This document shows positions 29,652 to 35,295 of a stretch of DNA of 57,946 nucleotides, piece after piece. The translations under genes and the position numbers were made by a program. The DNA comes from an uncultured Opitutia bacterium. Lineage in GTDB: Bacteria > Verrucomicrobiota > Verrucomicrobiia > Opitutales > Opitutaceae. The stretch spans positions 1 through 57,946 of the forward strand of contig CAIQQB010000114.1 of assembly GCA_903873805.1 (NCBI GenBank), in the 5' to 3' direction. Numbering within the stretch: position 1 is the stretch's first letter; each line of letters opens with the position of its first letter. The notes beneath the pieces are model-generated. The model searched no databases and was not told the DNA's origin. It saw only the letters and a list, made by a program, of their open reading frames with translations.

Positions 29652-29727
29652 GCAGGCGTAGCTCAGTTGGTAGAGCACCACCTTGCCAAGGTGGACGTCG
29701 AGAGTTCGAGTCTCTTCGCCTGCTCCA
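29652..29727 (+). tRNA. tRNA-Gly (anticodon GCC)
   Basis: 76 bases fold as a full cloverleaf: acceptor GCAGGCG with CGCCTGC, D arm GCTC/GAGC, anticodon stem CCACC/GGTGG around TTGCCAA (GCC anticodon), T arm GAGAG TTCGAGT CTCTT, discriminator T and encoded CCA. Its 3' part (29703-29727) is the left attachment site of the integrative element, which rebuilds the tRNA on insertion. Confidence 0.97.
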
Positions 29728-30967
29728 TTTCAGATAAGCGGCCGGGGGCGACCCTAGCCGCTTTTTTGCGTCTTAACGCGACAGGCTGAGGAGCTTGCGA
29801 AAGTGGGCTTGTGCGACCCGGCGCGACAGCCGGCGACTCGGAAAGACCCGAAATGACCCCCGCGTGTGCAGTCAGTTGTGTTGTCCGATTTCCGCAGTTG
29901 AGAGAGGGCAGGGAGGCCATTGCCTGCTGTAACGGAAGGTGCGACGTGTCGGTGTAAACCTTCATCGTCAGCTTGAGGTCGCTGTGCCGCATCAGCTCCA
30001 TGCTGGCCCGAGGGGAGACGCCATTGACTGCCAGCATGGTGCCGAAGGTCGTCCGGAGGGAGTGCAGGTCAACCCGCCGCCCGTGCTCATCCTCAAACGG
30101 AATTCCGGCCTTCTCGAGGTCCTTCTTGAAGGTCGGCACCCGCGGGACCGTGCCGCGGAAGACCCAATCAGAGGGCTTGGCGTGGGCGGTCTTCGACGCT
30201 TTGAGCGAGGCGACCAATTCAGGGCGCAGCCCGTGCACCGATTCCTTGCGGTTCTTGGAGATCGAGGACGGCACGCGGAGGGTGGGCGGCACCGCATCCA
30301 GGTCGAAATGCTCCCATTTAAGCCCGTTCAATTCGGCCCGGCGCAATCCGGTGTAAAGCGCAGCGAGGTAAACCGCCGCCCGATGGGGTGGGGCGACATT
30401 CAGCAGCTTTTGCGCCTCGGTCGGTGACAGCGCCCGACGATAGCTGCCCGGTGAGCGGTTGGGGACCTTTTCAACCTGCTTGAGGGGATTGGCGAGGATC
30501 AGTTGCCGGCGCTCCATCCATCGCAGGAGGCTCCCCATGGCACCGAGCAGGCAATTGCGGGTTTTTGGGCTCAATCCGCTTTTCCGGCTCCATTCGGAAA
30601 AAGACTGCACGTTGATGTCGCGCACCATCACCCAGCCGCACCGCTCGCAAAGCTTGGGGATGCAATTGCGGTATTTGCCGAGGGTGTTTCGTGAACGACC
30701 GTTGGCCGTGAGATCAGCCAGAAATGCCGCCAGATGCCCCGCAATCGGCGTTTGGGCGGCATCCCGCAGCAGTTTGGGTGCGATGATGCCGGCCTCTTCC
30801 TGCTCCAGGCGCTTGACCAGAGCCGTCAACTTTTGCTCGGCCACCCGCTTGTCAGTGACGTGCAAAGGAAAAACGCGGGTCTTGAGCCAGGAATCAAGAC
30901 GCACCTTGCCGGACCATAGCCGGATCTTCTTGCCGTGGGAGAAGGATTGAAAAGGAAAGCAGATCAT
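29663..30967 (-). CDS. int: Tyrosine recombinase (integrase), tail altered by integration
   Basis: 434 residues in the integrated state. The core-binding domain spans about residues 65-170. The catalytic domain shows Arg in LYTGLRRAELNG, HSLR (H-x-x-R) in VDLHSLRTTFGTML, His in LMRHSD and the nucleophile in KVYTD, so the active site is complete. The gene reads toward tRNA-Gly, passes through the 82-bp attachment repeat and ends inside the antisense tRNA, so the last 12 residues (STSTLARWCSTN) are tRNA-encoded. In the excised circle the same frame would continue with 62 other residues (35213-35024), giving 484. The start overlaps the AlpA-like stop by ATGA. It should catalyse insertion and excision at the tRNA. 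Confidence 0.95.
   Translation of the reverse strand: MICFPFQSFSHGKKIRLWSGKVRLDSWLKTRVFPLHVTDKRVAEQKLTALVKRLEQEEAGIIAPKLLRDAAQTPIAGHLAAFLADLTANGRSRNTLGKYRNCIPKLCERCGWVMVRDINVQSFSEWSRKSGLSPKTRNCLLGAMGSLLRWMERRQLILANPLKQVEKVPNRSPGSYRRALSPTEAQKLLNVAPPHRAAVYLAALYTGLRRAELNGLKWEHFDLDAVPPTLRVPSSISKNRKESVHGLRPELVASLKASKTAHAKPSDWVFRGTVPRVPTFKKDLEKAGIPFEDEHGRRVDLHSLRTTFGTMLAVNGVSPRASMELMRHSDLKLTMKVYTDTSHLPLQQAMASLPSLNCGNRTTQLTAHAGVISGLSESPAVAPGRTSPLSQAPQPVALRRKKAARVAPGRLSEMEQAKRLELSTSTLARWCSTN
29703..29784. repeat. Left attachment site (attL), 82-bp direct repeat
   Basis: From AGTTCGAGTCTCTTCGCCTG through the tRNA CCA end and terminator to AACGCGACAG. It matches 35214-35295 except for two substitutions (29743 and 29755), both in the terminator stem. 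Confidence 0.93.
29737..29767 (+). terminator. Terminator of tRNA-Gly
   Basis: Stem AGCGGC/GCCGCT with GGG/CCC inside and a GCGA loop, followed by TTTTTT. In this copy two adjacent base pairs of the stem are weakened (a C-A mismatch and a G-T wobble). The copy at the right attachment site forms a perfect 11-bp stem. Confidence 0.85.
29862..29880. repeat. 19-bp direct repeat, candidate integrase arm site (left copy)
   Basis: GCGTGTGCAGTCAGTTGTG is exactly repeated at 35130-35148. The two copies flank the attachment core at 78 and 65 bases in the circular form, like arm-type integrase sites. The arm-site role is inferred. Confidence 0.5.
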
Positions 30968-31185
30968 GGGTGGGCTCCTTGGGTATTCCGGCGTTCGGTC
31001 AGTCGTTGCAGGTAGGTGGTTACGTCGGCCAACAGCACCCGGGAGGCACGACCAATCTTCAGCGGGCGGGGAAATTCGCCGGCATTGATGAGCCGTTCCA
31101 GTGTCCGTTTAGAGATGGCAAGCGCCTTGGCCGCCTCATCGAGGGTCAGAAGGAGGGCGTCGATTGTGCCGGGTGCAGCGTTCAC
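30964..31185 (-). CDS. AlpA/excisionase-like helix-turn-helix protein
   Basis: 73 residues. LTLDEAAKALAISKRTLERLINAGEFPRPLKIGRASRVLLADVTTYLQ is the winged helix-turn-helix of AlpA/MerR-type excisionases (helix_turn_helix_17). Such proteins bind near attachment sites and favour excision, or regulate the integrase gene. The stop overlaps the int start by 4 bases (ATGA), and its own start overlaps the stop of the 168-residue gene in the same way, which indicates translational coupling of the three genes. Confidence 0.9.
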   Translation of the reverse strand: MNAAPGTIDALLLTLDEAAKALAISKRTLERLINAGEFPRPLKIGRASRVLLADVTTYLQRLTERRNTQGAHP

Positions 31186-31688
31186 GGCTTTTCCTTTGGC
31201 CGGTCAGCGGACTTTTTGGCCGATGTCGGTTGATGTGGGGTGGGTTCGACCGCCCACGACGGCCGGGCCTTGTCGATTTGCTTCTGGGTGACGATGCCCT
31301 GGGAGACGGCCCGTTCTTCCAGTTCGGCGCGCCAAGCCCGAACTTCGCTGACGGGGATGTAAGCGTAGGGCGACTCGCGGACGATCTTCTTGCCGCCCCA
31401 AAAAGTGGTTTTGCGGTGGGTGACGTGGAAAAGGAACATGGAGAGCCGCCCCTCCTGAATCCGCTTGTAAACCCCCGCCCGCGTGACTGGGCAGTACATG
31501 CCGACGCCCCCGGGTGAGACCGAAGGCCCGATCAAGTCGGTCAACGCGTCGAACCAGGCTGAGCTTTCCTCCTGCGAGCCGTCCTTGCGGTAGACGCGTG
31601 TGCCCTCGTCCTTTTCTCCGATGATGGGAAGCATTTCGGCAGGGACCTCGACGTGCGGAAAATTAGTAGGCATTCCGCAAACAGGCAT
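31182..31688 (-). CDS. Hypothetical protein with a helix-turn-helix-like segment
   Basis: 168 residues; no named family recognised. The middle part (YCPVTRAGVYKRIQEGRLSMF ... YAYIPVSEVRAWRAELEE, about residues 65-120) has the pattern of an excisionase-type DNA-binding domain with an inserted loop. The C-terminus is Lys/Pro-rich. It is the first gene of the overlapping chain leading to int. The start is ambiguous: ATG at 31688 or at 31673 (MPTNFPHVEVPAE). Both lie at or within a perfect 9-bp inverted repeat, and no good ribosome-binding site decides. It may be a transcription regulator of the element. Confidence 0.7.
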   Translation of the reverse strand: MPVCGMPTNFPHVEVPAEMLPIIGEKDEGTRVYRKDGSQEESSAWFDALTDLIGPSVSPGGVGMYCPVTRAGVYKRIQEGRLSMFLFHVTHRKTTFWGGKKIVRESPYAYIPVSEVRAWRAELEERAVSQGIVTQKQIDKARPSWAVEPTPHQPTSAKKSADRPKEKP

Positions 31689-31703
31689 GGGGTATGCGGA
31701 ATG
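31671..31703. promoter_or_regulatory. Perfect 9-bp inverted repeat over the start of the 168-residue gene, candidate operator
   Basis: CATTCCGCA (31671-31679) and TGCGGAATG (31695-31703), 15 bases apart. A TTGACA hexamer on the minus strand at 31702-31707 abuts the right half-site. A regulator binding here could block transcription or translation of the whole int chain. The -10 box is not clear. Confidence 0.5.
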
Positions 31704-35027: not shown

Positions 35028-35129
35028 GGTTGGAGTCCTTTCGTGCTGGCAATGATGGCCAGGATTGCCGCGCGCAGTTCGGGGCGCAGGGTGGGCCACG
35101 CATTGACGATTTCGGCGAGGTCGGAAAAG

Positions 35130-35148
35130 GCGTGTGCAGTCAGTTGTG
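35130..35148. repeat. 19-bp direct repeat, candidate integrase arm site (right copy)
   Basis: Exact copy of 29862-29880 (GCGTGTGCAGTCAGTTGTG), in the same reading frame of the integrase tail (QLTAHA). Confidence 0.5.
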
Positions 35149-35213
35149 CGGCCGCAGGGTGGGGCGATTCTGCAACGAGCGCTTGTTTAACACTATCCGT
35201 TTCTCGCGCAGGT

Positions 35214-35295
35214 AGTTCGAGTCTCTTCGCCTGCTCCATTTCAGATAAGCGGCTGGGGGCGACCCCAGCCGCTTTTTTGCGTCTTAACGCGACAG
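35214..35295. repeat. Right attachment site (attR), 82-bp direct repeat
   Basis: Contains only the 3' part of the tRNA (from the T arm) plus the terminator, here with a perfect AGCGGCTGGGG/CCCCAGCCGCT stem. It is offset 5,511 bases from attL, a multiple of three. Confidence 0.93.

Follow-up and report, generated by a model that had tools for sequence, protein, structure and literature searches.

Can an integrating element disconnect its own replication gene merely by the place at which its attachment site cuts its genes? This question is raised by a 5.5-kb element in a contig of an uncultured Opitutia bacterium (CAIQQB010000114.1, assembly GCA_903873805.1), of which positions 1 to 57,946 were analysed; this whole stretch is called the window below. 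The element occupies a tRNA-Gly gene and carries an integrase gene (int) at one end and a gene for a rolling-circle replication initiator (rep) at the other (Table 1). As judged from the reading frames, it is well supported that int has two state-specific C-termini and that only the circle, or a tandem array, joins int and rep in one chain.

The element is bounded by a direct repeat of 82 bp (29703-29784 and 35214-35295) with 2 mismatches and an exact stretch of 40 bp. Followed on the minus strand from 30967, the int frame crosses the left core (attL, the left attachment site) into antisense tRNA-Gly and stops after 434 codons. A sequence-only reading of this DNA had claimed both the repeats and an integrase running through them to end in 12 foreign residues, and both claims were borne out. 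When the frame is led through the right core (attR) instead, it runs to a TGA at 35024-35026, which overlaps the ATG of rep (35025-35027) as ATGA. The resulting Int has 484 amino acids (aa) at all 5 crossover positions tried, and the predicted gain of 62 residues, their total and the shared stop and start hold at each of them. That the catalytic part is kept in both forms was also read correctly: the match to PF00589, at residues 180-341, is intact in the 434-aa and the 484-aa protein.

Two other points of that reading had to be corrected. The offset of 5,511 between the repeats, a multiple of 3, had been taken as evidence for a common frame. It is uninformative, since the core itself carries the frame; core-to-core offsets in relatives leave remainders of 0, 1 and 2 modulo 3. 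The two upstream junctions of the chain had both been given as ATGA overlaps, which is right for alpA and int and wrong for the gene of a 168-aa protein and alpA, where the overlap is GTGA.

The window locus alone proves nothing, because 62 codons would stay open by chance at the G+C content of the window with a probability of about 0.18. The improbability of this single locus was therefore rejected as an argument, and the proof lies in comparative counts. The attR core copy holds a terminator-like stem on the plus strand (35247-35274). As the core includes such a stem, insertion restores both the tRNA end and its terminator. The stem is also carried by the attL core (29703-29784), behind the tRNA; by eye, no T-run follows it in the direction of int.

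Int, core and tail in related elements

Relatives were sought among genomes of the same family, Opitutaceae, where the joined Int query found a match in 132 of 200 and the rep query in 23 of 200. A hidden Markov model (HMM) was built from 14 tails, and part of the places that it matched were taken as stretches for analysis (loci, numbered with an L below). The tail motif occurs in at least 53 of 252 family genomes (E 1e-3) and, at E 1e-4, in at least 30 of a sample of 387 genomes across the phylum; 11 of the 30 belong to the same family. The first set, from the family, comprised 59 tail hits, 29 of them with a downstream int and 24 of the 29 with a core resembling a tRNA T-arm; in 23 of these 24 the tail, found by the HMM in any frame, lies in the int frame through this core. 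The second, wider set gave 20 loci, of which 11 had a downstream int and 9 a T-arm-like core, all 9 in frame. Both sets together have the tail in the int frame at 32 of 33 two-ended loci, where chance would give about one third for each. The core was recognised by a simple pattern, except in L146, where it was found by eye. Additional, shorter core copies out of frame are present in L199 and L204, and some of the ints in tail-int loci are truncated (e.g., L134, L200, L206).

The tRNAs called beside these relatives as targets include Gly, Pro, Glu, Leu, Ser, Met, Gln, Asn and Tyr; beside L069, L146 and L209 none was called. An antisense tRNA lies within 900 bp of 43 of the 59 ints examined; 39 of these ints read into it and 4 stop earlier, and the other 16 have no such tRNA. 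The frames confirm that related elements from other parts of the phylum Verrucomicrobiota share the int-core-tail layout.

Is the tail a segment of protein? For this comparison 32 elements were used, namely the in-frame loci minus L152, plus L064, whose tail was found by its frame and not by the HMM. The proportion of synonymous differences (pS) exceeded that of nonsynonymous differences (pN) in 71 of 71 tail pairs with an identity of at least 40% and in 490 of 493 pairs overall, a measure that the protein-guided alignment biases somewhat. The tail alignment contains a conserved W-P-x-L motif, which sits past the arm repeat described below. In the integrated form, 9 of 31 untruncated elements contain no ATG, GTG or TTG from the upstream stop up to the tail motif, and an ATG or GTG with a Shine-Dalgarno-like (SD-like) site before the motif is absent in 27 of the 31. 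Since the tail is conserved as protein although several relatives have no start of their own for it, it must be read from int across the core, in the circle.

An uninterrupted copy is present in the IMG/VR collection, in L228 (contig IMGVR_UViG_3300036717_000070, 49 kb, with phage-like open reading frames (ORFs) around int by eye). There, a single Int ORF of 528 aa comprises the catalytic domain, a T-arm-like core and the tail, and a repeat lies on both sides of the core. Near-identical blocks of ORFs were seen at about 3.5-5.5 kb and 10.8-12.9 kb of this locus. Its Int gave 6 distant matches among phages and only itself in IMG/VR, and the tail query had no match among phages. In the plasmid collection the window Int matched 20 records, all distant and none covering 80%. 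A plasmid integrase of Aquisphaera, considered by its annotation alone, led nowhere. Of the searches of IMG/VR for relatives of Int or Rep, some returned none and the others only four int loci and the contig L232, to which we return with rep.

In the circle, the core is flanked by an exact 19-bp repeat, as it would be by arm-type integrase sites. In 17 of the 32 elements, the longest exact repeat common to the int side and the tail side reaches 14 bp or more, whereas this holds for only 7 of 992 cross-element pairs. The distance from the core to the repeat of these 17 is 116-159 bp on the int side; on the tail side it is 56-74 bp in 16 of the 17 and 37 bp in L209. Judging by these positions, the entire attachment site of the circle (attP), arms included, seems to lie inside int.

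The tail also ends in a characteristic way. In 24 of the 32 elements, the ORF that follows has a possible start overlapping the tail stop codon, at exactly -4 in 19 (L064, L080 and L171 have further starts upstream of -4 as well), and in 2 more elements the next start follows 11-14 nt past the stop. The next ORF matches a Rep HMM in 20 of 32, weakly in L202, L204 and L213. By Pfam, these ORFs score above cutoff for PF23343 in L171, L202 and L213, for Rep_1 in L199 and for Rep_trans in L206, and below cutoff for PF23343 in L146, L156 and L209; that of L205 is 50% identical to that of L199. A separate case is L198 (minus strand, 15434-16973), where tail and rep form one uninterrupted ORF of 513 codons on a stretch in which no int was found. 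Int, tail and Rep might be a single polypeptide in the circle of this element.

The proposed switch and its alternatives

We consider it probable that the window holds an integrative element with attP inside int, whose circle joins the 168-aa gene, alpA, int and rep, with rep expressed mainly from the circle and with Int forms that differ between the two states. In the free circle, Int would have 484 aa and the conserved tail, and the four genes would follow each other as a single overlapping chain. Integration into tRNA-Gly replaces the tail by 12 residues of antisense tRNA, and rep, preceded by a tail that is now detached from int, is left at the opposite end. The operon promoter, we infer, would lie upstream of the 168-aa gene. 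Transcription of rep and its translational coupling would then take place mainly in the circle, and expression of rep mainly after excision is likely. Excision would then have to precede any rolling-circle replication, which would be harmful if it began in the chromosome. Tailed and tailless Int, we infer, would differ in activity, as in phage Mx8. The earlier claim that the Int tail reports the integration state stands at the level of sequence, and its effect on Int activity is carried over from Mx8.

Several observations weigh against this proposal. As for the layout itself, no repeat of the T-arm pattern was found in 6 of 29 and 2 of 11 tail-int pairs (L146 among them). The exception in the frame test, L138, is out of frame and has a truncated int; L152 is in frame yet interrupted by a stop; L212 has a 15-bp repeat that is not of tRNA type and is out of frame; and in L067, L134 and L144 a longer out-of-frame repeat accompanies the in-frame T-arm copy. 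The gene whose start is overlapped by the tail stop in L144 is int; the unit measures 1.4 kb and its two cores enclose no rep. Behind the tail, a Rep was not recognised in 4 of the 32 elements (L140, L148, L200, and L169, which was outside the Pfam scan). The sequence-only reading had named homologous integrases without the tail as evidence that would speak against it, and part of the homologues are indeed of this kind: short ones in L082, L090, L092, L096 and L097 end 9-24 residues past the catalytic domain. A complete Int with tail was found neither among the family-search matches listed nor among the 59 tail hits. In IMG/VR, of the four loci with a related int, L228 alone has a tail match and the other three have none; the match has an E value of 6.6e-4 in a five-locus search, and a rep following it could not be recognised.

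The expression of rep raises two more such points. A scan for sigma-70 promoters had matches only within the cargo gene and none ahead of rep or of the int chain, so that the position given above for the operon promoter is putative. An SD-like site is present at 23 of 26 starts after the tail (the int start of L144 included), in comparison to 45 of 307 random ATG or GTG codons, and for rep starts it sits in or near the last tail codons. As rep has an SD-like site of its own, it could be translated from any transcript that reaches it, e.g., one entering through attR. Since this site is kept, integration removes the transcription and translation from upstream, and not the ribosome site. The claim of the sequence-only reading that efficient translation of rep is confined to the excised form thus goes further than the sequences show.

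The first alternative to be weighed, which we regard as doubtful, is that the layout mainly regulates Int in the manner of Mx8: the tailed form integrates, the tailless one is weaker or favours excision, and the join to rep is packing, with rep transcribed in both states. Mx8 itself is a precedent for it, the frequency of SD-like sites agrees with it, and overlaps are common in tight gene chains, that of the small element L079 (2,847 bp) being nearly gapless by eye. A promoter gap between rep and int had been considered in L079 and was rejected, since by eye a short helix-turn-helix (HTH) gene fills it. However, packing alone does not predict that Reps of three Pfam families stand directly behind the tail, and Tn916 and SNJ2 show that such joins can matter.

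A second alternative denies the tail any function as protein. The 3' end of the tRNA would double as attP, the frame would be open by chance, the tail would be no more than an attP arm, and rep would be independent of the integration state. We find this unlikely. The tail keeps the int frame at 32 of 33 loci, is conserved at the protein level in 71 of 71 pairs, bears its W-P-x-L motif past the arm repeat and overlaps the next ORF with its stop in 24 of 32 elements; such regularities count for more than the openness of a single locus (about 0.18), the arm-type repeat that the tail does contain and the SD-like site of rep, all of which this explanation accommodates. Least likely of all is that the tail is a separate short leader gene before rep, with its own start when integrated and regulating rep in both states. 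A start codon does lie in or near the core in some elements (an ATG inside the core in the window; L065, L200, L205, L209, L213), but 9 of 31 lack any ATG, GTG or TTG before the motif, 27 of 31 lack an ATG or GTG with an SD-like site, and the tail is fused to Int in L228.

The excision-coupled int-rep chain is thus the reading that we prefer. A broader version of it is possible, and we offer it tentatively: the elements may form a class in Verrucomicrobiota in which integration acts as a two-way switch in one gene. The circle would give tailed Int and Rep by overlapping translation, and the integrated form a tailless Int specialised in excision, with Reps of several unrelated types disconnected, which would prevent rolling-circle firing in the chromosome with no repressor needed; the tail would be a transferable state-sensing module, used across tRNAs and Reps. 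If the preferred reading is true, bacterial elements would solve a general problem, the silencing of a rolling-circle initiator in the chromosome, through the geometry of their genes alone. The tail would serve as a conserved marker for finding and delimiting such elements, and the layout would explain the antisense-tRNA residues at the ends of such integrases in genome sequences. The system lends itself to a direct test of whether a tyrosine recombinase owes its activity or its direction to the C-terminus.

Other genes of the element and its right flank

The residues H117, H119, Y183 and Y187 of Rep are invariant in an alignment of 16 rows. In the plasmid collection, 26 records matched rep; the 20 listed measure 0.7-2.1 kb and show 45-54% identity over 62-73% of the query, and at least three of the matches listed are annotated as 'phasyl DNA replicon protein arp'. 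The window Rep is also 42% identical to the Rep of L232, an IMG/VR contig that is filamentous-phage-like by its genes. Because of these plasmid matches and the match in L232, rep is very probably a real rolling-circle initiator. Against the phage collection, the window Rep had no match. The hairpin inside the 5' end of rep is a candidate replication origin, suggestive by its strong fold in the window, but a motif similar to its apex was found in just 6 of 24 other loci (7 of 25 with the window), at differing distances.

The 168-aa protein gave no match in Pfam and NCBIfam scans at the limits used. At the head of its gene, the palindrome at 31665-31709 (ATTCCGCA/TGCGGAAT) stands beside a TTGACA and is a candidate for the operator and promoter of the int chain. 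The inverted repeats at 31756-31925 overlap or adjoin the element-specific repeat. A Pfam scan (E up to 0.1) of five element genes together with the tail ORF, shorter ORFs lying outside it, yielded no FtsK-like transfer gene.

What follows attR on the right is not plain host DNA but what is left of an older element, once inserted in tandem into the same tRNA. The frame of the relic int is unbroken through the core into the tail; the right end of the window element is therefore already an int-core-tail junction, of a truncated int. The claim that integration cuts rep off from the chain and places it beside foreign DNA was thus correct as to the separation, but the flank is a relic int. A gene that by eye resembles an esterase (about 35655-36762) lies between the end of the relic int and the copy of the element-specific repeat.

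Table 1. Features of the element and its surroundings in the window
Feature	Position	Strand	Evidence or remark
tRNA-Gly(gcc), integration target	29652..29727	+	ARAGORN
int, integrated form, 434 aa, final 12 residues from antisense tRNA	29663..30967	-	PF00589, E 6.7e-18
attL core: tRNA 3' end and tRNA terminator, within the int frame	29703..29784		repeat comparison
Int-side arm-type repeat, 19 bp, exact	29862..29880		
AlpA/excisionase-family protein, 73 aa, GTG start, ATGA overlap with int	30964..31185	-	TIGR01764 above cutoff; HTH_17
168-aa protein; its gene heads the int chain and shares GTGA with alpA	31182..31688	-	
Inverted repeat (repeat I22) at head of int chain, candidate operator	31665..31709		putative function
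Two long imperfect inverted repeats	31756..31925		DNA folds, z -3.75 and -1.46
Element-specific repeat	31839..32012		sole other genomic match in the right flank
Cargo gene with T5SS/PEP-CTERM-associated repeat	32061..33902	+	TIGR04393
rep, HUH rolling-circle replication initiator, 362 aa	33939..35027	-	PF23343, E 3.2e-11, above cutoff
Hairpin inside rep 5' end, candidate replication origin	34943..34999		DNA fold, z -7.0
Int tail, 62 codons and TGA, fused to the window int only in the circle; stop overlaps rep start	35024..35213	-	
Tail-side arm-type repeat, 19 bp, exact	35130..35148		
attR core	35214..35295		repeat comparison
C-terminal remnant of a second, related int, whose frame continues into the tail	35216..35449	-	54% identity over aa 344-421; open frame
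Remnants of older element: copy of the element-specific repeat (36853-36999); rep scrap with stop (37022-37090)	36853..37090		

Comparison with known systems

Actinomycete integrative and conjugative elements such as pSAM2 combine a rolling-circle rep, xis and int in one small element that integrates into a tRNA gene; their attP lies beside int, and they carry an FtsK-like transfer gene. The window element differs from them in that its Pfam-scanned genes include no FtsK-like match. In archaeal integrases of the SSV1 type, integration splits int and disrupts the catalytic gene, whereas the catalytic domain of the window Int stays whole on integration.

The closest parallel on the side of the integrase is phage Mx8. 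Its attP is described as lying within int, so that integration gives int a new 3' end (PMC6070905), and the Int forms before and after integration are reported to differ (PMC6070905, PMC4701971). The integrases of Mx8 and SSV are named as extending across attP in the Islander paper (PMC4383910). A T-arm-like stretch is visible inside the Mx8 int sequence. Mx8 shares with the window element the attP in int, the new int 3' end on integration and, by its annotation, an excisionase gene overlapping int; it differs in that int is followed, after a gap of 47 bases, by p13 and not by rep, and in being a large phage and not a small Rep element. Homology between the tails was considered and rejected, as the tail HMM had no significant match in Mx8 Int. 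The window element therefore works alike at most, without a homologous tail. Streptococcal integrative and conjugative elements (ICEs) in rumA likewise have the attachment site within the integrase gene, and the excised form has a different C-terminus (PMC4701971); unlike in the window, the integrase is a serine integrase, and the portion of the source at hand describes no coupling to rep.

On the side of rep, the haloarchaeal provirus SNJ2 resembles the window element in that excision links the int operon with replication genes. According to the accessible part of its description, these genes lie at the far end and are needed for replication, and a new ORF spans attP (PMC13107129). SNJ2 differs as an archaeal virus in which, according to the same part, this ORF is found downstream of int, not as an extension of Int, and transcription starts inside int. 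In Tn916 and related ICEs, too, it is only in the circle that genes from both ends are joined into one chain. In the integrated state the replication and transfer genes of Tn916 are far from their promoter; once the element is excised, transcription reaches them across the circle joint, and loss of an insulating terminator is reported to cost host fitness (PMC11658703). These elements are unlike the window in being conjugative and in using a terminator with an antiterminator, and the sections of that paper available to us mention no change of the Int protein. Within the parts of the open-access literature that we could consult, we found no report of the combination, of a shared tail, of coupling to several Rep families or of a spread in the phylum. 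Each half of the arrangement is known: attP in int from Mx8, and operons assembled by excision from SNJ2 and Tn916.

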